DNA of 64,000 nucleotides, taken from contig JAMFSE010000071.1 of NCBI GenBank assembly GCA_026225115.1, positions 1 to 64,000 on the forward strand, given 5' to 3'. Position 1 is the stretch's first letter. Each line of letters starts with the position of its first letter. The translations under genes were made by a program, and so were the position numbers. This document shows, in pieces, positions 7,862 through 58,459 of the stretch. Origin of the DNA: Rhodovastum atsumiense (GTDB lineage Bacteria > Pseudomonadota > Alphaproteobacteria > Acetobacterales > Acetobacteraceae). The notes under the pieces are model-generated. The model was not told the DNA's origin. It saw only the letters and a list, made by a program, of their open reading frames with translations, and did not search any database.

Positions 7862-8947
7862 TTAGCTGAGCTTGCCTTCAATTCCCGCAACCAGCGTCTG
7901 GATGCCAGCGAGCGTGCCGTCATCCATGGTCTGCCCGGCGGGCAGGAACACCTTGCCGGTCTGGTCGGTCAACGGTCCGACAAAAATCTTATTCTTGCCG
8001 GAAGAGATATCCGCAACGGTGCTGGTGGCAAGTGCTGCCACATCCGGCGGCATGTTCAAAAACGGCGCCATTTTCAGCATACCGACTTCAAAGCCGCCCC
8101 AGGTATCGATGCTGGTCCAGTTTTTCGCCAGCACCGCCTTCATCCGCTGGGTATAATACCCGCCCCATTCATTGACGTCGGCGGTCAGCTGCGTATGCGG
8201 CGCGAAGCTGATCATATCCGTCGATTCGCCAAATGCCTTGATGCCGCGGGACGCCGCCACCTGCAGCGGCGCCGGACTATCGGTGTGCTGGGTCAGAATA
8301 TCGCATCCCTGGTCGAGCAGCACTTTCGCCGCATCGCCTTCCTTGCCGGGATCGTACCAGCTATCGATCATCACGAATTTTAGTTTTGCTTTCGGGTTGA
8401 TGCTCTGCATGCCGAGCAGAAACGCATCCATCCCCTGCACCACTTCCGGCACTGGCACCGAACCGACGTAACCCGCGAGCCCGGCCTTGGATAATTTGCC
8501 GGCGATCACCCCCTGCACGTAGCGGCCCTGATAGAAACGGATGTCGTAGGTCGCGAGGTTGGGCGCGCGCTTATAGCCGGTGCAATGCTCGAACTTGACG
8601 GCCGGGTATTTCCCAGCAACCCGCACCATATAATCCATATAGCCGAAGGACGTGCCGAAAATCAGATCATGGCCGGAAGACGCCAGGCTCTCGAACACGG
8701 CCTGGCATTCCGGCGCCTCCGGCACGTTCTCGACATAGCTGGTCACGACCTCGCTGCCCAACGCCGTCTGCGCCAGCTTGCGGCCGACGTCGTGCTGGTA
8801 GGTCCAGCCGAAATCGCCGACCGGGCCGAGATAGACGAAACCGACCTTCAGCGGCGCATCCGCGCGCGTGGCCCGCATGATGCCGGGAGCCGCCAGCGCG
8901 GACGCACCCAGCAATGCGGTAAAGCCGCGACGTTTGATGGTTGTCAT
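7862..8947 (-). CDS. BMP-family ABC transporter substrate-binding protein
   Basis: A 361-residue periplasmic binding protein of the basic-membrane-protein (BmpA/Med) family, which serves nucleoside and purine-type ABC importers. It starts with a Tat-like signal (KRRGFTALLGASALAAPGIM), then VGFVYLGPVGDFGWTYQHDVGR, FGTSFGYMDYM and GKLSKAGLAGYVGSVPVPEVVQGMDAF, which are typical of the family. AGGAG lies before the ATG. It is downstream of the two permease genes and the ATPase gene in the same direction. The ligand is unknown; purines or oxidised purines are suggested by the neighbours. Confidence 0.9.
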   Translation of the reverse strand: MTTIKRRGFTALLGASALAAPGIMRATRADAPLKVGFVYLGPVGDFGWTYQHDVGRKLAQTALGSEVVTSYVENVPEAPECQAVFESLASSGHDLIFGTSFGYMDYMVRVAGKYPAVKFEHCTGYKRAPNLATYDIRFYQGRYVQGVIAGKLSKAGLAGYVGSVPVPEVVQGMDAFLLGMQSINPKAKLKFVMIDSWYDPGKEGDAAKVLLDQGCDILTQHTDSPAPLQVAASRGIKAFGESTDMISFAPHTQLTADVNEWGGYYTQRMKAVLAKNWTSIDTWGGFEVGMLKMAPFLNMPPDVAALATSTVADISSGKNKIFVGPLTDQTGKVFLPAGQTMDDGTLAGIQTLVAGIEGKLS

Positions 8948-8992
8948 GCAAAACTCCTGCTTCGTTGTTGTTTAAAATTAATTTCCAAAGTT

Positions 8993-9919
8993 TCAGGCCA
9001 CGGCGTGAAAATACTTGCCGAGGCAGGCCGGCTGATTGAGCCGGATCCGCCGGCTGTCGCGCGAGATCAGCACCAGCACCACCACCGTGCCGACATAGGG
9101 CAGCGCCGAGATCAGCGGTGATGGGATCGGCACGCCAAGCCCCTGCAAAAACAGCGACAGATAGGTGATGCCGCCGAAAAGATAGGCGCCGGCCAGCAGC
9201 CAGAGCGGCCGCCACGCTGCGAACACCACCAAGGCGAGTGCGATCCAGCCGCGCCCGGCCGCCAGATCCTGCGACCAGAGCGGCGAGTAAAAAAGCGAGA
9301 GATAAGCCCCCGCAATACCGGCCATGGCGCCACCGAACGCGACCGCGCCGTAGCGGATCGGAATCACCGGATAGCCCATGGCATGCGCCGCATCATGGCT
9401 GTCGCCGACCGCGCGCAGGATCAGCCCGGCATGGGTTTTGCGCAGAAACCACGCAATCCCCCCGAGCATGATGAAGGAGAAATAAATCAGGATATTCTGA
9501 TCGAATAATATCGGCCCAAGAAACGGTATTTCTGCCAGGCCCGGAATCGCGATCTTGCCCAGCACCGGTGCGGCGATGCCGACGTAATTCGCCCCCAGCA
9601 GGGCCGCGAACCCATGTCCGAAAATCGTCAGCGCCAGGCCGGTTGCAATCTGATTGGCGAAGAAACTCAGCGTCAGCACGGCAAACACCATGGAAATCAG
9701 CATGCCTGCCCCCGCTGCCACCAGCACGCCGACATAGGCATTGCCGGTGGCATGCGCGGTCGCAAATCCGGCAATGGCGCCAATCAGCATCATGCCCTCA
9801 ACCCCAAGGTTCAACACGCCGGAACGCTCGGTGACCAGTTCGCCGGACGCCGCCAGCAACAGCGGCGTGGAGGCGGCGATGATGCTGATAATAAAGTTTG
9901 AGACCTCGACCATACTCAT
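8993..9919 (-). CDS. ABC transporter permease, BMP/nucleoside-type (second permease)
   Basis: A 308-residue inner-membrane permease with about eight to ten hydrophobic helices. GELVTERSGVLNLGVEGMML and the GRGWIALALVVFAAW segment are typical of the branched-chain/BMP permease family. The ATG at 9919 overlaps the stop of the previous permease as ATGA. A longer open frame reaching 10504 is only read-through antisense to coding logic of the neighbouring permease and is not used. It pairs with the permease at 9916-11007 to form the membrane channel. Confidence 0.9.
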   Translation of the reverse strand: MSMVEVSNFIISIIAASTPLLLAASGELVTERSGVLNLGVEGMMLIGAIAGFATAHATGNAYVGVLVAAGAGMLISMVFAVLTLSFFANQIATGLALTIFGHGFAALLGANYVGIAAPVLGKIAIPGLAEIPFLGPILFDQNILIYFSFIMLGGIAWFLRKTHAGLILRAVGDSHDAAHAMGYPVIPIRYGAVAFGGAMAGIAGAYLSLFYSPLWSQDLAAGRGWIALALVVFAAWRPLWLLAGAYLFGGITYLSLFLQGLGVPIPSPLISALPYVGTVVVLVLISRDSRRIRLNQPACLGKYFHAVA

Positions 9920-11007
9920 TTGACGGACTCCGCGAGGACCATGGGCGCGGGTGCTCTCACCCGCTTGAACCGATGCAAAATCAAAACATCCGCACCCAGC
10001 AGGTAGAACAGCAGCACGCCCTGAAATATCCCGGTGATCGCGTTCGGCAGATGCAGGTTGATCTGCGCCGCATCGCCGCCGAGATAGGAGAGCGCCAGCA
10101 GCAGCCCCGCGAAAATCACCCCGATCGGATGCAGCCGGCCGAGAAAGGCGACAATGACGGCGGTGAACCCGTAGCCCGGGGTGATTTCCGTCGTCAGCTG
10201 GCCGATCGGCCCGGTGACCTCGATAATGCCGGCCAGGCCCGAAAGCCCCCCGCTCACCAGCAGCGCGATCCAGGTCAGCTTGGCATTGCTGAACCCGGCG
10301 AAGCGGGCGGCGCGCGGCGCCTGCCCAACCACCCGCAGCTGAAACCCCAGCACCGAGCGTTCCATGACCTGCCAGAGAATAATCGCGATGACCGGCGCCA
10401 GAACGCAGCCGAGATGGATCGATGTCGTGCCGAAATCCGGCGTCGTGGCGCCGGCGCTGAACATCGCCGATTGCGGAAAGCCATACCCCATCGGGTCGCG
10501 CCAAGGCCCCGTCACCAGCCAGGTCAGGACCAGCTGCGCGATATAGACCAGCATCAGGCTGGTCAGAATTTCATTGGCGTTGAATTTCAGTTTGAGAAAC
10601 GCGACGATGCCGGCCCAGAACATGCCGCCCAGCACGCCGGCAACCAGCACAATCGGGTAGAACCACCAGAACGCCGCATTCGGAAAAAACAGCGCGAGCC
10701 CGCCGCCCGCAATCGCGCCCAAGGTAAACTGCCCATCGCCGCCGATGTTCCAGACATTGGCCCGGTAGCAGAACGAAAGCCCGACCGCGATCATGATCAG
10801 CGGCGCCGCCCGCACCGCCAGCGAGGCAAGGCCGGAGACGGTCAACAAAGGCGAGATCAGAAAAGTCTCAATGGCGGTCAGCGGCGGCGTGCCCAATATC
10901 GCAAACAGCACGCCCATGGTGACGATGGTGAGAACAACTGCCAGTACCGGCGAGGCATAGCTCCATAGCTGCGAGCGCTCGCCGCGGGGCTCAAGCCGGT
11001 AGGGCAT
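9916..11007 (-). CDS. ABC transporter permease, BMP/nucleoside-type (first permease)
   Basis: A 363-residue polytopic permease of the same family (NVWNIGGDGQFTLGAIAGGG and FNANEILTSLMLVYIAQ are typical). The ATG at 11007 is chosen because GGAGG lies six bases upstream; a start at 11025 would add six residues. Its start lies inside the end of the ATPase gene and its end overlaps the next permease by four bases, so ATPase, both permeases and probably the binding protein are expressed together. Confidence 0.9.
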   Translation of the reverse strand: MPYRLEPRGERSQLWSYASPVLAVVLTIVTMGVLFAILGTPPLTAIETFLISPLLTVSGLASLAVRAAPLIMIAVGLSFCYRANVWNIGGDGQFTLGAIAGGGLALFFPNAAFWWFYPIVLVAGVLGGMFWAGIVAFLKLKFNANEILTSLMLVYIAQLVLTWLVTGPWRDPMGYGFPQSAMFSAGATTPDFGTTSIHLGCVLAPVIAIILWQVMERSVLGFQLRVVGQAPRAARFAGFSNAKLTWIALLVSGGLSGLAGIIEVTGPIGQLTTEITPGYGFTAVIVAFLGRLHPIGVIFAGLLLALSYLGGDAAQINLHLPNAITGIFQGVLLFYLLGADVLILHRFKRVRAPAPMVLAESVK

Positions 11008-12556
11008 CGACCGCCTCCGCTTCACTGCCGCCCATCAACAGGCCAATCCGTTCGATCGTCGCTTCCTTCACCGCCATCGGCTCGGAGACCCTGCCTGCCG
11101 CAATCACCGCAATCCGGTCGCAAAGGAGCAGAATTTCATCGAGATCCTGGCTGATCAGCACCACTGCCGTGCCGGCCTGCGCCAACGCCACCAGCGCCTC
11201 GTAAATCGCCGCGGCGGCCCCTGCATCGACGCCCCAGGTTGGCTGACTGATCACCAGCAGGCTAGGCTGCTGCACCACCTCCCGCCCGACCAGGAATTTC
11301 TGCAAATTGCCGCCCGAGAGCGAGCGCGCCTCGGCCTGCGGCCCGGTGGTGCGCACATCGAAGCGCTTGATCACGCCGGCCGCAAAATCGAACGTCCGCC
11401 GCCGGTTGATTACGCCCAGCCGGTGTAAAGCCCCGCGCACATAGGCGGACAAAAACCCGTTCTCCGATAGCGACATCGGCCCGACCGCGCCGTGGCCGTT
11501 GCGTTCCTCCGGCAGGAACCCGCAGCTTTGCCGCCGCCGCTTCGCCGGTCCGTCATGGCCGATGGGCTTGCCGTCAAGCAGGATATTCTTCGGCGATCCG
11601 GCCGGAATTTCGCCGGACAGCGCATCCATGAACTCGCTCTGCCCATTGCCCGCAATACCGGCGATGCCGAGGATTTCGCCCGGCGCCACGCTGAACGAGA
11701 TGTCCTTCAAATCCGTCCCGAATGGCTGATTGGAGCGGATGGTCAACCGGTCCAGCACCAGCCGCGGCGCCGCCGTGCTGGCGATCTTATGCCCGAAATC
11801 CTGCTCTTTCAGCTTGGCGCTGATCATCAGCTCGGCGAGCTCGCGCGCGGTCTTTTCCTTCGGCACGCAATGCGCCACCACCTTGCCCAGCCGCATAATC
11901 GTTGCCTGCTCGCAAAGTGCCCGGATCTCTTCCAGCTTATGGCTGATGTAGAGGATCGAGCAGCCCTCGGCCGCCAGCCGGCGCAAGGTCTCGAACAGCT
12001 TGAAGACTTCCTGCGGCGTCAGCACCGAGGTCGGTTCATCCATGATCAGCAGTTTCGGATTTTGCAGCAGGCAGCGCACAATCTCGATGCGCTGGCGCTC
12101 GCCCACCGAGAGGTCATGCACCGCGCGCGCCGGGTCCAGCGGCAGGCCGTAGCGGGTCGAGATATCGACGATCCGGTCCTGCAAGCCCACCCGGTCCGCC
12201 GGATTGTTCAGCCCCAGCGCGATATTTTCGGCCACCGTCAGCGCCTCGAACAGGGAGAAATGCTGGAACACCATGCCGATGCCAAGGCTGCGCGCCTGCG
12301 CCGGGCTGCCGATGCGCACCGCCTTGCCGAGCCATTCGATGCGCCCCGCATCCGGCTTCATCACGCCGTAGATTATTTTGACGAGCGTGCTCTTTCCCGC
12401 GCCATTCTCGCCCAGCAATGCATGGATTTCGTTCTGCCCGACCGTCAGATCCACCGCATCATTGGCAAGGCACCCAGGAAACTGCTTGGTAATCCCGCAC
12501 AGGCTAAGCAACGGCGGCGGCATTTGGGTGGCGGGCCCGATGGTTTCAGAATCCAT
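10991..12556 (-). CDS. Two-domain ABC transporter ATPase, BMP/nucleoside-type
   Basis: A 521-residue protein with two fused ABC domains, as in sugar and nucleoside importers (RbsA/NupO type). Domain 1 has Walker A GENGAGKST near residue 54, signature LSVGERQRIEIV and Walker B LLIMDEPTSVLT. Domain 2 has a degenerate Walker A (GIAGNGQSE) and signature LSGGNLQKF, so only the first site may hydrolyse ATP fully, which is usual in this family. It is the first gene of the minus-strand operon and its start faces the 8-oxoguanine deaminase across 42 bases. Confidence 0.93.
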   Translation of the reverse strand: MDSETIGPATQMPPPLLSLCGITKQFPGCLANDAVDLTVGQNEIHALLGENGAGKSTLVKIIYGVMKPDAGRIEWLGKAVRIGSPAQARSLGIGMVFQHFSLFEALTVAENIALGLNNPADRVGLQDRIVDISTRYGLPLDPARAVHDLSVGERQRIEIVRCLLQNPKLLIMDEPTSVLTPQEVFKLFETLRRLAAEGCSILYISHKLEEIRALCEQATIMRLGKVVAHCVPKEKTARELAELMISAKLKEQDFGHKIASTAAPRLVLDRLTIRSNQPFGTDLKDISFSVAPGEILGIAGIAGNGQSEFMDALSGEIPAGSPKNILLDGKPIGHDGPAKRRRQSCGFLPEERNGHGAVGPMSLSENGFLSAYVRGALHRLGVINRRRTFDFAAGVIKRFDVRTTGPQAEARSLSGGNLQKFLVGREVVQQPSLLVISQPTWGVDAGAAAAIYEALVALAQAGTAVVLISQDLDEILLLCDRIAVIAAGRVSEPMAVKEATIERIGLLMGGSEAEAVDALPA

Positions 12557-12598: not shown

Positions 12599-13954
12599 AT
12601 GAATACGTTAGACGTCAAAGCCATGCGGCTATGGATCAAACAGCCGCTCGCCGGCATGCCGGCGGGCGCGGAAGGCGGGATCGTCCTCGACGGCCAGATC
12701 ATTGCCGCCTATGTCGCCGCCGGCGAGCAGCCGGTGGCAGACGAGGTGTTCGACGCCGGCGAACATGTCGTCCTGCCCGGGCTCATCAACACGCATCATC
12801 ATTTCTACCAGACGCTCACCCGCGCCTACGCGCCGGCAGTCGATAAAAAACTCTTCGACTGGCTGGTCGCTCTGTACCCGGTCTGGGCCCGGATGACGAA
12901 GCCCGAATTCCGCCTCGCCTGCCGGCTGGCATTGGCCGAACTCCTGCTCTCCGGCTGCACCACGGCAGCCGATCACCATTACGTGTTTCCCGAAGGCCTG
13001 CCGGACGCCATCGATATCGAGCTGCAGGAAGCAGCAGCACTCGGCATCCGCGCCGTGCTCTGCCGCGGCTCGATGGATCTCTCGACCGAAGACGGCGGCC
13101 TGCCCCCGCCGTCCGTTACCCAAAGCATCGACACGATCCTGGCCGACGGCGAACGCCTCGCCAGAACCTGGCACCAGCGCGGCCCGGGCACGATGAGCCA
13201 GATCGCGCTGGCCCCCTGCTCGCCTTTTTCCGTCACCGGCGCGCTGATGCGGGAAACCGCGCTGCAGGCCGAAAATCTCGACCTGCGCCTGCACACCCAT
13301 CTCGCCGAAACCGATGACGAGAACGAATTCTGCCTCCAAAAATATGGCAAGCGGCCGCTGGATTACCTGGAAGATCTAGGCTGGGTCAGTAACCGCGCCT
13401 GGTTCGCCCACGGCATCCATTTCACCGGAGAAGAGATCCATCGCATGGGCATGGCCGGCTGCTGCGTGGCGCATTGCCCCAGCTCCAACATGCTGCTCGG
13501 CTCAGGCATCTGTCCGGTCAGCGCGCTGGAGCAGGCGGGCGTCGCGGTCGGGCTTGGGGTCGACGGCTCCGCCTCCAACGATGGCTCCAACATGATCCAG
13601 GAATTGCGGCAGGCGCTGCTGCTGGCCCGCGCCGGCCGCGGCATCGGCGCTGCCAAATTCAGCGACCCGATCCGCTGGGCAACCCAAGGCTCCGCCCGCT
13701 GCCTCGGCCGCGACGATATCGGCGCGATCACCCCCGGCCTGCAAGCCGACCTCGCCTTCTTCAAGCTGGACGAACCACGCTTCTCCGGCGCCGGCGATCC
13801 CCTCGCGGCACTGATCACCTGCGGCGCCCACCGGGCCGACCGCGTGATGGTCGGCGGCATCTGGCGCGTCATCGACGGCGCCATCCCGGGGCTCGACATG
13901 CCGGCACTGCTGGCCGCCCATAATGCCGCCAGCCGCCGGTTGCGTGCCGGATAG
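12599..13954 (+). CDS. 8-oxoguanine deaminase (amidohydrolase superfamily)
   Basis: A 451-residue metal-dependent amidohydrolase. It has the beta-strand-1 HxH metal motif (NTHHHF, His66 and His68), a metal His in LHTHLAE, a His in WFAHGIHF, and Asp322 in GVDGSASNDGSNMIQE. That last stretch is characteristic of the 8-oxoguanine deaminase branch, which converts 8-oxoguanine to urate and ammonia. It is divergent from the operon of purine-type transporters, which supports a purine substrate. Other hydroxy- or chloro-ring deaminases of the superfamily remain possible. The intergenic space is only 42 bases, and no strong ribosome-binding site precedes the ATG. Confidence 0.85.
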   Translation: MNTLDVKAMRLWIKQPLAGMPAGAEGGIVLDGQIIAAYVAAGEQPVADEVFDAGEHVVLPGLINTHHHFYQTLTRAYAPAVDKKLFDWLVALYPVWARMTKPEFRLACRLALAELLLSGCTTAADHHYVFPEGLPDAIDIELQEAAALGIRAVLCRGSMDLSTEDGGLPPPSVTQSIDTILADGERLARTWHQRGPGTMSQIALAPCSPFSVTGALMRETALQAENLDLRLHTHLAETDDENEFCLQKYGKRPLDYLEDLGWVSNRAWFAHGIHFTGEEIHRMGMAGCCVAHCPSSNMLLGSGICPVSALEQAGVAVGLGVDGSASNDGSNMIQELRQALLLARAGRGIGAAKFSDPIRWATQGSARCLGRDDIGAITPGLQADLAFFKLDEPRFSGAGDPLAALITCGAHRADRVMVGGIWRVIDGAIPGLDMPALLAAHNAASRRLRAG

Positions 13955-52254: not shown

Positions 52255-52337
52255 AAGCGGTTCTTTTTTTGAAAAAAAGAACCAAAAAACTTTTGTTAAT
52301 TTGGGGCATGGGCTGTGGCAAAGACAGCGCCTATGCC
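52255..52337. repeat. AT-rich multi-hairpin repeat, copy 4 (partial)
   Basis: A long left hairpin GGTTCTTTTTTT/AAAAAAAGAACC (52259-52283) is followed by the core CAAAAAACTTTTGTTAATTT and a middle stem GGCATGGGCTGT/ACAGCGCCTATGCC with mismatches (52305-52337). The right third found in copies 1-3 is absent. It lies downstream of puuE, whose stop codon at 52331-52333 is inside the middle stem. Confidence 0.82.
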
Positions 52338-53230
52338 GGATGCTGCTCCAACCAATGCCGCGCGATATCAATCCGCCGCGCCAGCCAAACCTTTTCATGT
52401 CCCTGCACGTAATCCAAAAACCTTGCCAGCGCCGCAGCCCGCCCGGGCCTTCCCACAATCCGGCAATGCAGCCCCACCGACATCATCTTCGGCGCGACTT
52501 CGCCTTCGGCATACAGAACGTCGAAACAATCCTTCAAATAGGCGTAAAACTGCGCACCCGAATTAAACCCCTGCACTGCGCAAAACCGCATGTCATTGGT
52601 ATCCAGCGTATACGGCACCACAAGCTGCGCCCGCCCGTTCGACGCATCGTAATACGGCAGATCATCGGCATAAGAATCCGCATCGTAAACAAACCCGCCC
52701 TCATTAGCCACCAGCCTCGCGGTATTTGGACTGGTGCGCCCCGTGTACCAACCCAATGGCCGCGTCCCGGTCAGCGCCGTATGCAACTTGATAGCCTCTG
52801 CCATATGCTCGCGCTCGATCGCTTCGGGCACATGCTGATAGTTGATCCAGCGAAGACCATGGCAGGCAATCTCCCAGCCGCTTTCCAACATTGCCGACAC
52901 CACCTCAGGGTTTCGCGCCATCGCCATCGACACGCCGAACACCGTCACCGGCATACCGCGCTCGGCAAACAATTTCCGCACCCGCCAGAACCCGGCGCGC
53001 GCGCCGTATTCGTACAGGCTCTCCATGCTGATATGGCGCATGCCCTCAATCGGCTGCGCGTTCACAATCTCCGATAAAAACGCCTCCGACGCATTATCTC
53101 CATGCAATATGGAATTCTCTGCGCCCTCTTCGTAATTCACCACGAAATTAATCGCGACCCTGGCGCCGCCCGGCCACGCCGCCGCCGGCGGCCGCCCCCC
53201 ATAACCAATCAAATCCCGAGGATAATTCAA
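52331..53230 (-). CDS. puuE: Allantoinase PuuE (polysaccharide-deacetylase fold)
   Basis: A 299-residue PuuE, the cofactor-independent-fold allantoinase that opens allantoin to allantoate. The N-terminus YPRDLIGYGGRPPAAAWPGGARVAINFVVNYEEGAE, EYGARAGFWRVRKLF, WEIACHGLRWINYQ and TGRTSPNT are characteristic. The start is TTG, one base after the uraH stop (TGA-G-TTG) with GGGGCGGA upstream. It is last in the guaD-uraD-FAD enzyme-uraH-puuE operon. It ends with TAG inside repeat copy 4. Confidence 0.93.
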   Translation of the reverse strand: MNYPRDLIGYGGRPPAAAWPGGARVAINFVVNYEEGAENSILHGDNASEAFLSEIVNAQPIEGMRHISMESLYEYGARAGFWRVRKLFAERGMPVTVFGVSMAMARNPEVVSAMLESGWEIACHGLRWINYQHVPEAIEREHMAEAIKLHTALTGTRPLGWYTGRTSPNTARLVANEGGFVYDADSYADDLPYYDASNGRAQLVVPYTLDTNDMRFCAVQGFNSGAQFYAYLKDCFDVLYAEGEVAPKMMSVGLHCRIVGRPGRAAALARFLDYVQGHEKVWLARRIDIARHWLEQHPA

Positions 53231-53231
53231 C

Positions 53232-53528
53232 TCATCCGCCCCGATAGGTGGAATAGCCGAAAGGCGAGAGGATCAACGGCACATGATAATGCACTTCCGG
53301 CTCGGCCACATAAAACCGTATCGGTATAATATCGAAAAACCCGGCTCCCTGATAATCTCCTGCATGGAACAGCAACTCATAGCCGCCCGCTTCCAATGTC
53401 TCCAGCAATTCACCGCGCCCGCCCGCATCCAGCGTCACGCTCGCCAGAACCTCGCCGCCGCGCCGCAGATCCACCCGCATGCCGGCCGCACCGCAGCCCT
53501 GCGCAGTGTCCAGCACATGCGTCGTCAA
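53232..53528 (-). CDS. uraH: 5-hydroxyisourate hydrolase (transthyretin-like)
   Basis: A 98-residue transthyretin-related protein that hydrolyses 5-hydroxyisourate to OHCU. It has TTHVLDTA with His4, a central GGRGELL with Arg38, HYHVPLILSPFGYSTY with His82, and the C-terminal signature in the form YRGG instead of the common YRGS. The start is TTG at 53528. It is placed five bases after the FAD-oxidoreductase stop, in the ureide operon. Confidence 0.93.
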   Translation of the reverse strand: MTTHVLDTAQGCGAAGMRVDLRRGGEVLASVTLDAGGRGELLETLEAGGYELLFHAGDYQGAGFFDIIPIRFYVAEPEVHYHVPLILSPFGYSTYRGG

Positions 53529-53533
53529 CCCGC

Positions 53534-54967
53534 TCAGTGGGTGAACTCCACTTCCGAATAGGCCAGGAACTCACCGAGAATCTCCTTCGAATCATCGGTA
53601 AACAATTGCCGCGTGACGCCCGCCACAACTTTCGGCACCGCAAATTTCAGCCCTGAAAGGGCCGCCGCCGAAAGCCCCAGGCTTACCAGCGCCGAGTAGT
53701 TGAAAACGAACAGTCCATGCAGCCGGTCAGCCGCCTCCGGCGACTTCGGCATAAATTCAAAGGACGGCCCGAGATATGGATGATCCTCGATCAACCGATT
53801 CTGCCTGCCCTCCGGGGCTGAATAAACATCCCGCCAATGCGCGATATCCTTGGCAACCGCTGCCAGCTCCGGCCGTAGCGCCACATCGGTCAAAAGCCCT
53901 GTGCTGGCGATCACCATCGCGTAATCATGCGTGGTCTTCGGCGTCGTCACCCGCACCCCTTCGGCAATCTCCTCCACCTTCAGCCACGGCTCACCCAGAT
54001 GCAGATGAAAGCCGGAATAGGCGGAGGCGCGGGAGAACGTATCATTGGTCGGTGGCTGGCTGTGATTAAGGAAAAAATCCATCGCCTCGTATTTCGCCGC
54101 ATCACCCAGATCGGCGAAATGCCGCAAGAACCCGGCATTCTCCATATAGCGTATTGGATTGATCCGCGGCATCGCGCTGCGCCGCATGAACACATGCACC
54201 TCCGCGATCCCCATCCCCAGCGAATACTGCGCATTGTCAAAAGCCGAGGCGCCGCCGCCCAAAATCCCGATCTTCTTGCCGATCAACGGAGCGAAATCGA
54301 TCGGCCCGGAAGTATGCGCATATAAATGCTTCGGCAATGCCGAGGTGATGAAGTCCGGCAGATGCCATTCCCCACCACCCTGAATCCCAGTCGCCAGCAC
54401 CACCTTACGCGCCAGGATCGTATCCCCCGCCCCAGCACCCGATACGACCAGCCGGAACAAGCCGCGCTCGACTGGTTCAATCAGCTCAACCCTGGTCTCA
54501 TTCTGCATCGGTATTTCCAGCGTTGCCCGGAACCAGCGCAGATAGCGCATCCATTCCTCGCGCGGCACCTTGCCGACCTGCTCCCACGCATCCTCGCCAT
54601 ATTGCGCTTCCCAGAACGCCCGGAAGGTCAATGACGCAACACCCAGATCCGGACCGGTCAGATATTTCGGCGTCCGCAGCGTCACCATCCGCGCATAGGT
54701 AATCCACGGCCCCTCGAGCCCGGCCTTGTTCTCATCCAGCACCAGGATATTTTCTACCTTGTCGCGCTTAAGCCCAAACGCCACCGCCAGACCACTTTGG
54801 CCGCCGCCGATGATCACCGCATCGTAAACATGCTGACCGGCACTGGCTTTATGCGTACGTACCCATTGATGCGCCGGATAATCCAAACATTTCAAATCAT
54901 GCAGCACCCGCGCGGTGAGCGCCGCCAGCCCTGCCGCCTCAGCACCCTGTTTGGCCGCAGCACTCAT
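53534..54967 (-). CDS. FAD/NAD(P)-dependent oxidoreductase of the ureide operon
   Basis: A 477-residue flavoprotein with a first Rossmann motif IIGGGQSGLAVAFGL near residues 51-65 and a second nucleotide motif IGILGGGASAFDNA near 232-245. The two-Rossmann layout resembles class B flavin monooxygenases (FMO/BVMO-like) more than the class A HpxO urate hydroxylase. It is coupled to uraD by ATGA and is followed by uraH, so it lies exactly between genes for the steps after urate oxidation. No recognisable urate oxidase is present in the window, and this enzyme is a candidate for that step. This is inference. Confidence 0.8.
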   Translation of the reverse strand: MSAAAKQGAEAAGLAALTARVLHDLKCLDYPAHQWVRTHKASAGQHVYDAVIIGGGQSGLAVAFGLKRDKVENILVLDENKAGLEGPWITYARMVTLRTPKYLTGPDLGVASLTFRAFWEAQYGEDAWEQVGKVPREEWMRYLRWFRATLEIPMQNETRVELIEPVERGLFRLVVSGAGAGDTILARKVVLATGIQGGGEWHLPDFITSALPKHLYAHTSGPIDFAPLIGKKIGILGGGASAFDNAQYSLGMGIAEVHVFMRRSAMPRINPIRYMENAGFLRHFADLGDAAKYEAMDFFLNHSQPPTNDTFSRASAYSGFHLHLGEPWLKVEEIAEGVRVTTPKTTHDYAMVIASTGLLTDVALRPELAAVAKDIAHWRDVYSAPEGRQNRLIEDHPYLGPSFEFMPKSPEAADRLHGLFVFNYSALVSLGLSAAALSGLKFAVPKVVAGVTRQLFTDDSKEILGEFLAYSEVEFTH

Positions 54968-55461
54968 CGCCGTACCCCTTCCACCAAATCCTGCAGCCGC
55001 AATTTCGTAATCAGCCCAATCTGCGCAATCGCCTCTTCGCGCTCTGCCCCCGCATCATGCGCAAGCCGCGTCTCGAACGCGGCCAGTATCGAAGCCTTGG
55101 TCTGCAGCCTGACGCAAATGATAAACGGAAACCCGAATTTCTCCCGGTAGGCCGCATTCAACACGGAAAACCGCTCGAATTCCGCCGCCGACAACCGCTT
55201 CAACCCGGCCCCCATTTGCTCGGCCGCCGAGGCATCGGTGAGTTCCACCCGCGCCGCCAGCTCCGGATGCGCCCGGAGCAAATCAAGCTGCGCCGCTTCA
55301 CCGGCCTGCGCCACCTCCGCCAAGAGCGCGGCATGCAATGCCGGCACATCCGCAAACGGCCGCCGCACCCAGGCGCGTTCGACAACCCAGGGAGAGTGCT
55401 CAAAAATATGCCCAAATTTCTCTAAAAATACGGCTTTGCTGTCTATCCCAAACCCGTCCAT
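54964..55461 (-). CDS. uraD: OHCU decarboxylase
   Basis: A 165-residue enzyme that decarboxylates 2-oxo-4-hydroxy-4-carboxy-5-ureidoimidazoline to S-allantoin. Catalytic His65 is in LLRAHPELAARV, and FGFPFIICVRLQTK, the AEFERFSVLNAAYREKF helix and RLAHDAGAEREEAIAQI are the family marks. It overlaps the FAD enzyme by four bases and follows guaD by nine. With uraH and puuE it completes the 5-hydroxyisourate-to-allantoate route. Confidence 0.94.
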   Translation of the reverse strand: MDGFGIDSKAVFLEKFGHIFEHSPWVVERAWVRRPFADVPALHAALLAEVAQAGEAAQLDLLRAHPELAARVELTDASAAEQMGAGLKRLSAAEFERFSVLNAAYREKFGFPFIICVRLQTKASILAAFETRLAHDAGAEREEAIAQIGLITKLRLQDLVEGVRR

Positions 55462-55470
55462 GCCGCAGCC

Positions 55471-55965
55471 TTAGTAGGGGATGCGAGAAGGGTTATCGAT
55501 CCAGCTTTGCAAACAGGCCAGCGCCTCCGCGTCGCATTCACTCACCACCACGACCGGAATGTCGCGCTCCTCCAGCGGCTTCGCCAGTTGCTCATAAAAC
55601 GCCTTGTCGTCGAACCCGATCTTCTCGGCCGCCTCGACCGGCGCGCCATAATGCACCTTGCCGATCCGCGACCATAAAATGGCCGACATGCACATCGGGC
55701 ACGGCATGGCATTCACATATATTTCGCAATCGGAAAGATTAAACCGGGCGAGGTTCTTCGATGCGTCGCGGATCGCCGTCACCTCGGCATGCGCCGTCGG
55801 ATCGTTGCTGGACAGCACGCGGTTATGCCCCTGCCCCACAATCTCCCCGTCTTTGACGATGACTGCGCCAAAAGGCCCGCCATGCCCACCTGCCATGCCC
55901 TGGTAAGCGAGCGCGATTGCCTGCCGCATAAAACGGGTGGCGTCGCTGCTATCCTGCGTCATCAT
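55471..55965 (-). CDS. guaD: Guanine deaminase (CMP/dCMP-deaminase fold)
   Basis: A 164-residue zinc deaminase of the cytidine-deaminase superfamily with HAE at 59-61 (AHAEVTAIRD) and the zinc cysteines Cys89 and Cys92 (MPCPMCMSAIL). The sequence resembles B. subtilis-type guanine deaminase, which makes xanthine from guanine; its position at the head of a ureide operon supports this. Starts at 55962, 55965 or 55989 are possible. It is divergent from the allantoate-amidohydrolase-like gene. Confidence 0.85.
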   Translation of the reverse strand: MMTQDSSDATRFMRQAIALAYQGMAGGHGGPFGAVIVKDGEIVGQGHNRVLSSNDPTAHAEVTAIRDASKNLARFNLSDCEIYVNAMPCPMCMSAILWSRIGKVHYGAPVEAAEKIGFDDKAFYEQLAKPLEERDIPVVVVSECDAEALACLQSWIDNPSRIPY

Positions 55966-56036
55966 TGCCCCATTTCCATTCCACGCCATACTGTCTTAAC
56001 GTTCATCGCACTGCAACACGGAATTTCCCCCGGCCC

Positions 56037-57248
56037 ATGCAACACAGCCTGATGAACCGCCTGGCGGAACTCGCCGCCATCACCGACACGCCAGGCGCTC
56101 TCACCCGCCTGTTTTTGTCGCCGGCGCACAAACGGGCCATCGAACTGATCACCGGTTGGATGCAGGATGCGGGGCTGGAAACCGAAATCGACGCCATCGG
56201 TAATCTCGTCGGCCGCAGCCCGAATGCGGCCGGCAAGCCCCGGTTGCTGCTCGGCTCGCATATCGACACGGTTCGCGACGCCGGCGCCTATGACGGTAAT
56301 TTCGGCGTCCTCGCCGCCATCACCGCCGTGAAGTCAATGGAGGCACTGCCCTACGCGATCGAAATCATCGCTTTCGGTGATGAGGAAGGCTCACGCTTCC
56401 CGCAAACCCTCTCCGGCTCTCGCGCCGTCACAGGCAATTTCGACATGAACGCGCTATCCAGCGCCGACAGCACCGGCGCCACCATGGGCGACGCCCTGAG
56501 AGCCTTCGGCGGGGATCCAGATTCCATCCCGAAAATCGCCCGCAACCCGGCCGAAATCCTTGCCTATGTCGAACTGCATATCGAGCAAGGCCCGGTGCTG
56601 GAAGCCAAAAACCTGCCCGTCGGCATCGTCACCGCCATCAACGGCGCCTCGCGCCTCGCCGTCACCCTCACCGGCGCCGCCGGCCACGCCGGCACCGTGC
56701 CCATGGCAATGCGCCGTGATGCCCTGGCTGCCGCCGCCGAGCAGATCCTCTTCATTGAAACCTACGGCAAATCCATCCCCAACCTGGTCGCCACCGTCGG
56801 CTCCCTCGCCATCCATCCCGGCGCCCCCAACAGCATCCCCGGTCGCGCCACCTACAGCATCGATATCCGGGCGCCGGAGGATTCCGCTAGGCGGGAGGCC
56901 GTCGCGACCATCAGCGCCAGGCTTGAAGAAATCGCCGCCACCCGAAACATCGAAATCGCCATCACTCAAACCCACAACGCGCCGGCGACGACATGCGCCT
57001 CTTGGCTGCAAGACCAGCTCGCCGACGCAATTGCCGCTCAGAACCTGCCAGTGTGTCATTTGCCCAGCGGCGCCGGCCACGACGCCATGGCCATCGCCGC
57101 CCTCTGCCCGGTCGCCATGCTCTTCACCCGCTGCAAAGGCGGCATTAGCCACACCCCGGCGGAATCCATCACCGCGGAAGACGCGAACATCGCCGTCGCC
57201 GTCCTGACCCGATTCCTCCGCTCCTTTAAAATGCCGGAAACCCCATGA
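56037..57248 (+). CDS. M20 amidohydrolase, allantoate amidohydrolase/carbamoylase-like
   Basis: A 403-residue Zn-dependent M20 hydrolase. Metal and active-site motifs include LLLGSHIDTVRDAGAYDGNFGV, AFGDEEGSRFPQTLSGSRAVTG, ELHIEQGPVLE and a late GAGHDAMAIAA with HTPAES. These place it in the hydantoinase/carbamoylase group that includes allantoate amidohydrolase (AllC). Being divergent from an allantoinase operon makes allantoate the likely substrate, yielding ureidoglycine or ureidoglycolate, CO2 and ammonia. The start is set at ATG 56037; a TTG at 55965 would overlap guaD. It overlaps the next M20 gene by four bases. Confidence 0.85.
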   Translation: MQHSLMNRLAELAAITDTPGALTRLFLSPAHKRAIELITGWMQDAGLETEIDAIGNLVGRSPNAAGKPRLLLGSHIDTVRDAGAYDGNFGVLAAITAVKSMEALPYAIEIIAFGDEEGSRFPQTLSGSRAVTGNFDMNALSSADSTGATMGDALRAFGGDPDSIPKIARNPAEILAYVELHIEQGPVLEAKNLPVGIVTAINGASRLAVTLTGAAGHAGTVPMAMRRDALAAAAEQILFIETYGKSIPNLVATVGSLAIHPGAPNSIPGRATYSIDIRAPEDSARREAVATISARLEEIAATRNIEIAITQTHNAPATTCASWLQDQLADAIAAQNLPVCHLPSGAGHDAMAIAALCPVAMLFTRCKGGISHTPAESITAEDANIAVAVLTRFLRSFKMPETP

Positions 57249-58459
57249 CTACGATCCACGACTTCCTCGCCCAGCACCGGCAAGCCGAACAGGATTTTCT
57301 GGCGGCATTGGTACGCACCCCGTCCGACAACCCGCCGGGCGACTGCGCCGCCCATGCCGAACGAACCGCCGCCTTGCTGGAAGACCTGGGCTTCACCGTC
57401 GAACGCCATCCGGTCCCGCCGGGCCTCGTCAAATCCCACGGCATGATCAGCGCCACCAACCTCATCGTCCGCCAAAAATTCGGCCCCGGCCCCACCATCG
57501 CGCTCAACGCCCATGGCGACGTCGTGCCCCCCGGCGAGGGCTGGAGCACCGACCCCTACGGCGCCGCGATCATCGACGGCTGGATGTACGGCCGCGGCGT
57601 CGCCGTTTCAAAATCCGACATCGCCACCTACGCTTTCGCCCTTGCTGCCCTGCGCGACACGAATGCGAAACTCGTAGGCACCGTCGAACTCCACATCACC
57701 TATGACGAGGAAACCGGCGGTGAAATCGGCCCCGCTCTGCTGCTGCAACAAGGCCTTACAAAACCCGATCTCGCCATCGCCGCCGGGTTTTCCTACGCCG
57801 TCGTCACCGCCCATAACGGCTGCCTGCATCTTGAAGTGACGGTCAACGGAAAATCCGCCCACGCCGCCAAGCCTGATACCGGCATCGACGCCCTGCACGC
57901 CGCCAATACCATCCTCGCCGCCCTTTACGCCAGCCGCGAAACCCTCGCCAAAACCACCTCCGCCACCCCCGGCATCGGCTCCCCGCAGCTGACCATCGGC
58001 CTCATCGAAGGCGGCATCAACACCAATGTCGTGCCCGACCGCGTCACCTTCCGGCTCGACCGCCGCCTCATCCCCGACGAAAACCCCGCCACCGTCGAAG
58101 CAAATTTAAAAGCTGAAATCCAATCCGCCGCCGCAACCCATCCCGGCATCACGATGAACATCCGCCGCATCCTGCTGGCCGAACCTCTGACACCGACCCC
58201 CGCCGCCGCCCGCATGACCGAATTGCTCTGCGCCAATGCCAGCAAAATCTTCGGCGAACCCATAACCCCAGCCGGCGTGCCCCTCTATACCGACGCCCGC
58301 CACTACGCCGCCGCCGGCATCCCCATCATCCTCTACGGCGCCGGCCCGCGCAGCATCGAAGAAGCCAACGCCCACCGCGCCGACGAACGCCTGCCCCTGG
58401 CAGATCTTTTCCGGGCCACGGAGGTCATCGCGCTCACGCTGCAAGAACTACTCAGCTAA
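57245..58459 (+). CDS. M20-family amidohydrolase (ArgE/DapE-like), second copy
   Basis: A 404-residue M20 hydrolase: ALNAHGDVVPPGEGW is the metal motif, DEETGGEIGP carries the catalytic Glu pair, and AHADERLPL-like HRADERLPLADLF ends the catalytic part. It differs clearly from the gene before it and looks like an ArgE/DapE/acetylornithine-type deacylase or ureidoglycolate-related enzyme. It is translationally coupled (ATGA) to the allantoate-amidohydrolase-like gene, so a role late in ureide breakdown is suspected; the substrate is not known. Confidence 0.83.
   Translation: MTTIHDFLAQHRQAEQDFLAALVRTPSDNPPGDCAAHAERTAALLEDLGFTVERHPVPPGLVKSHGMISATNLIVRQKFGPGPTIALNAHGDVVPPGEGWSTDPYGAAIIDGWMYGRGVAVSKSDIATYAFALAALRDTNAKLVGTVELHITYDEETGGEIGPALLLQQGLTKPDLAIAAGFSYAVVTAHNGCLHLEVTVNGKSAHAAKPDTGIDALHAANTILAALYASRETLAKTTSATPGIGSPQLTIGLIEGGINTNVVPDRVTFRLDRRLIPDENPATVEANLKAEIQSAAATHPGITMNIRRILLAEPLTPTPAAARMTELLCANASKIFGEPITPAGVPLYTDARHYAAAGIPIILYGAGPRSIEEANAHRADERLPLADLFRATEVIALTLQELLS

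Follow-up and report, generated by a model that had tools for sequence, protein, structure and literature searches.

A predicted HpyO-type urate hydroxylase in the purine-breakdown operon of an Acetobacteraceae-like alphaproteobacterium

How does a bacterium oxidise urate when its purine-breakdown operon carries none of the familiar genes for the task? The question is raised by a window of 64,000 nucleotides (the whole stretch of DNA analysed here) from Rhodovastum atsumiense, in which the minus-strand order guaD, uraD, hpyO, uraH, puuE sets a flavoprotein gene among recognisable purine genes (Table 1). The gene in question, named here for the enzyme to which we assign its product, is an open reading frame of 477 aa with an ATG start that encodes a two-Rossmann FAD protein.

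The purine operon and its missing step

From the four-base overlap between uraD and hpyO, and from near-zero gaps at the hpyO-uraH and uraH-puuE junctions, we infer that the operon genes would be co-transcribed, with uraD and hpyO translationally coupled. The UraH score falls slightly short of the TIGR02962 cut-off, and the start of uraH is ambiguous (53232-53536), being either the TTG at 53528 or a CTG that overlaps the hpyO stop and would extend the N-terminus to its usual length (LSGLTTHVLDTA). Divergent from guaD lies an allC-like gene, whose true start is probably an internal ATG near 56037, and beyond it an M20 hydrolase of the ArgE/DapE family. This hydrolase adjoins purine genes again in loci L044 (2698-3915), L045, L134 and L135; the genomes in which it lies beside purine-degradation genes are Acetobacteraceae-like, together with two other Pseudomonadota.

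Table 1. Positions of the purine-related genes and sequence motifs in the window
Feature	Position	Strand	Basis
8-oxoguanine deaminase	12599-13954	+	NF006055 625 bits vs cut-off 532
Bmp/PnrA-type ABC transporter: substrate-binding protein, permease, ATPase	7862-12556	-	divergent from 8-oxoguanine deaminase
puuE, allantoinase	52331..53230	-	TIGR03212 546 bits vs cut-off 424.6
uraH, 5-hydroxyisourate hydrolase	53232..53528	-	TIGR02962 84.8 bits vs cut-off 87.45, E 5e-24
hpyO, FAD/NAD(P)H-dependent urate hydroxylase (predicted)	53534..54967	-	Pfam, Xanthomonas identity, clade, AlphaFold fold
Second dinucleotide-binding motif GGGASA, residues 237-242	54242..54259	-	GAS[AG]F
FAD-binding motif GGGQSG, residues 54-59	54791..54808	-	GxGxxG at residue 54
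ATGA shared by uraD stop and hpyO start, 4 bases	54964..54967	-	read in sequence
uraD, OHCU decarboxylase	54964..55461	-	TIGR03164 189.9 bits vs cut-off 96.25
guaD, CDA-fold (guanine) deaminase	55471..55989	-	Pfam dCMP_cyt_deam_1 96.7 bits; under TadA cut-off
allC-like allantoate amidohydrolase, divergent from guaD	55965..57248	+	NF006775 532 bits vs cut-off 479
ArgE/DapE-family M20 hydrolase	57245..58459	+	TIGR01910 224.8 bits vs cut-off 217.6

Absence searches covered the whole draft assembly (3.67 Mb, 98.8% complete), which yielded neither the uricase domain PF01014 nor the PuuD domain PF06181 and, with HpxO as query, a best match of 22% identity (E 7e-6) and no orthologue. This match, on contig C94, was discarded as a generic aromatic monooxygenase, since it scores 67.9 bits where the HpxO model has a cut-off of 500. 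With no uricase, PuuD or HpxO in the assembly, the FAD protein is therefore the sole candidate seen for urate oxidation.

Much of the preliminary description of this locus is borne out by these results. Its operon of guaD, uraD, uraH and puuE is present in full, with family models backing UraD, UraH and PuuE; the unassigned flavoprotein that it pointed to, a gene for which it gave no strand, is a real open reading frame with two Rossmann domains, on which Pfam, motifs and structural model agree; and the coupling to uraD with uraH next is seen in the shared ATGA and in a uraH that follows closely. The genome-wide search for uricase, puuD and hpxO that it had proposed has now been run, and the absence of all three, which it had reported for the window, extends to the assembly as searched.

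Relationship to HpyO of Xanthomonas

A passage in PMC4562309, citing Michiel et al. 2012 (Environ Microbiol Rep 4:642) as the source paper, describes HpyO of Xanthomonas as a urate oxidase that uses FAD as its cofactor and NAD(P)H as a cosubstrate and is not homologous to HpxO. A scan of named genomes had no Xanthomonas among its best 80, and the acetylcitrulline deacetylase sequence from PDB 2F7V served as a marker for the family and the genus. That enzyme is from X. campestris, and eight genomes of one genus (g330) were taken as Xanthomonas on the strength of a marker enzyme 95-98% identical to it. Within the family marked in this way, queries with the window protein returned full-length matches of 54-58% identity in two genera that resemble Xanthomonas as well as in some relatives, the eight Xanthomonas-assigned genomes matching at 54-55% over the full length (~470 residues) and a pairwise alignment with the Xanthomonas operon flavoprotein giving 254 identical positions out of 470. 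Each of the eight holds one family member (E <= 1e-10), and the gene order in all of them is allC, (gap), puuE, uraD, FAD protein, uraH. In the one cluster that was scanned, the remaining genes (a LysR regulator, allC and a class-V aminotransferase) include no recognisable second flavoprotein.

On this evidence the window gene is very probably an orthologue of hpyO, whose product would be a flavoprotein urate hydroxylase filling the missing operon step. The gene shares with the Xanthomonas operon gene its length, its FAD and NAD(P)H-type domains, its place between uraD and uraH and the identical missing step, whereas the host there is a gammaproteobacterium and here an Acetobacteraceae-like alphaproteobacterium; moreover, the window operon is headed by guaD, with allC divergent, and activity in the window is predicted from genes.

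The earlier suggestion of a class-B-like urate hydroxylase is accordingly divided in its fate. Role and build are strongly supported by operon, orthology and fold, but the accompanying view that such an enzyme type had not been described for urate does not hold, as Xanthomonas HpyO is known from the same passage (PMC4562309) and the window protein appears orthologous to the operon flavoprotein. A flavin urate hydroxylase of the HpyO type has been described from Xanthomonas already, and the window gene, whose product almost certainly takes the urate-oxidising step, adds a member.

Predicted fold, proposed reaction and possible source of urate

The AlphaFold model of the hpyO product, made with 30 orthologues (pLDDT 83, pTM 0.86), is closest among solved folds to ornithine and lysine N-hydroxylases (PvdA: Z 26.3, rmsd 3.3, 378 residues), with the Stenotrophomonas flavin monooxygenase (SmFMO) also among the nearest. 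In Pfam the protein matches Pyr_redox_3 (57.5 bits) and NAD_binding_9 (43.9 bits), the latter a domain that InterPro names HpyO/CreE and that served as a lead, not as a test. Among the 69 family members with uraD and uraH nearby, GxGxxG at residue 54 is present in every one and GAS[AG]F is conserved in 67; around GGGASA the model has a beta strand spanning 232-236, followed by a helix that begins at 240. Taken together, model and motifs support a class-B-like flavin monooxygenase of a single component, in which GGGQSG is the predicted site for FAD and GGGASA that for NAD(P)H. PvdA, KtzI, SidA and SmFMO resemble it in FAD site and inserted NADP domain (Z 22-26), but share 14-20% identity with the window protein and act on other substrates.

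Several other names were tried and set aside. The classical FMO/BVMO fingerprint FxGxxxHxxx[WYF] occurs in none of the 69, which removes a classical class B FMO/BVMO, although the fold is still of class B type. Structural matches to thioredoxin reductase and YpdA reflect a shared two-Rossmann architecture and were dropped as functional leads. NCBIfam profiles placed the protein in no named family; the best match, ArsO, reached 44.6 bits, far under its cut-off of 425. HpxO (Klebsiella, Acinetobacter; EC 1.14.13.113) has the same reaction and cofactors as are expected for the window protein, but it is a PHBH-type flavoprotein with one Rossmann domain and about 385 aa. That identity was rejected, since the HpxO model NF033623 is not among the NCBIfam matches of the hpyO product and BLASTP between the window protein and an Acinetobacter-type HpxO gave no meaningful alignment. 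In other operons the same step is filled by PuuD (COG3748), a membrane cytochrome c enzyme, or by uricase (Uox), a cofactor-free T-fold enzyme; neither is in the window genome, and the hpyO product, with neither PF06181 nor PF01014, is neither of them.

If substrate, cofactors and reaction are taken by analogy from published HpyO work, a single polypeptide would hold FAD in the Rossmann domain at its N-terminus and bind NAD(P)H in the second, inserted Rossmann domain, and reduced flavin with O2 would hydroxylate urate to 5-hydroxyisourate, with water as the other product. UraH would then hydrolyse 5-hydroxyisourate to OHCU, UraD would decarboxylate OHCU to S-allantoin, and PuuE would turn S-allantoin into allantoate.

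Where the urate might come from is a separate matter. The guaD product would yield xanthine, though the one model searched for the next enzyme, MoCoBD_2 of the xanthine dehydrogenase large subunit, matched nothing at E <= 1e-5 in the draft assembly, so that no molybdenum xanthine dehydrogenase was found there. Elsewhere in the window is a gene for 8-oxoguanine deaminase, the product of which is urate. Given the Bmp/PnrA-type nucleobase/nucleoside importer beside this deaminase and the lack of any match to a molybdenum xanthine dehydrogenase domain in the assembly, the HpyO operon might chiefly burn urate derived from 8-oxoguanine and not from xanthine, an idea that we offer tentatively and think rather unlikely.

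Breadth of the family and competing explanations

A quick tree of 95 relatives, judged by SH-aLRT support only, unites the window protein with proteins of Xanthomonas, Sphingomonas, Parvibaculum, Acidocella and Bacillota in a clade of 62 (SH-aLRT 100, branch 0.64), with some long branches outside it. Rhizobium-type and other paralogues without uraD or uraH nearby fall outside this clade; since the wider family thus includes paralogues away from these genes, as in Rhizobium etli, fold alone is no proof of substrate. A co-oriented uraD within 1 kb accompanies the gene in 49 of the 61 clade members that were sampled, and the count for uraH is likewise 49. The order on a plasmid of Priestia filamentosa (purine permease, uraD, uraH, FAD protein) is a different one, in a different phylum. 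With recurrences in Xanthomonas, Parvibaculum, Sphingomonas and Bacillota, the uraD-flavoprotein-uraH arrangement is far beyond chance. Many Paenibacillus and Bacillus genomes carry an hpyO-like gene apart from uraD and uraH, for example beside adenine deaminase (L062, 3557-7443). Where Bacillota genomes have a copy away from uraD, UraD was found elsewhere in 43 of 43; the figure for Pseudomonadota at large, a background not matched to the Bacillota one, is 141 of 398. The gammaproteobacterial urate clusters sampled, which were included as the source of the HpxO reference and for comparison only, use different genes.

Two other readings of the window gene deserve to be weighed against this background. 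Its product might be a flavin monooxygenase or reductase working elsewhere in purine breakdown (for example with xanthine, an 8-oxopurine or a methylated purine as its substrate), with urate oxidised by an enzyme that escaped recognition. The varied contexts of the wider-family paralogues would fit such a role, as would the lack of a xanthine dehydrogenase domain in the genome, which leaves an upstream purine-hydroxylating step unfilled as well. Yet the cluster of Parvibaculum sedimenti (L039) also has a deaminase and both xanthine dehydrogenase subunits, and there the gene therefore fills the sole gap between xanthine and 5-hydroxyisourate, namely urate oxidation. Uricase, moreover, is present in 3 and absent from 63 of the 66 tested genomes with the gene, and the Xanthomonas orthologues correspond to the reported HpyO; we hold a role in another purine step to be highly improbable.

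The remaining reading, a new family of urate hydroxylases resembling HpyO in general build only, draws on the fact that our link to HpyO runs via the sole family member in the Xanthomonas urate operon and not via the exact characterised X. campestris sequence, and that the window protein reaches no HpyO model in NCBIfam. Against it stand 54-58% identity over the full length to the Xanthomonadaceae genes, whose order is identical, a single supported clade and a single family member per Xanthomonas genome, and it strikes us as slightly more improbable still. Assignment as an hpyO orthologue is thus preferred, and it closes the one gap in the purine-breakdown operon of the window.

HpyO, which tends to be treated as an enzyme of Xanthomonas, would on this assignment be widespread, extending to Acidocella, Parvibaculum, Sphingomonas, Paenibacillus and Bacillus; what is new here is how broad the clade is and where the window member stands within it. 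Wherever annotation was seen, clade members are labelled merely as generic oxidoreductases, and the clade could underpin their correct annotation and supply urate-degrading enzymes that are free of peroxide. A second, more distant clade (support 96; mostly 40-49% identity to the window protein) may be a divergent HpyO group that extends HpyO further. Its loci include L033 (Niveispirillum), L010, L020, L026, L027 and L117, and some members, L033 for one, adjoin uraD, uraH or both. On a plasmid of Rhizobium sp. ACO-34A (L034, 7950-12791), genes for an 8-oxoguanine deaminase and a PuuE-like protein are located a few genes away from a distant paralogue of 46% identity.
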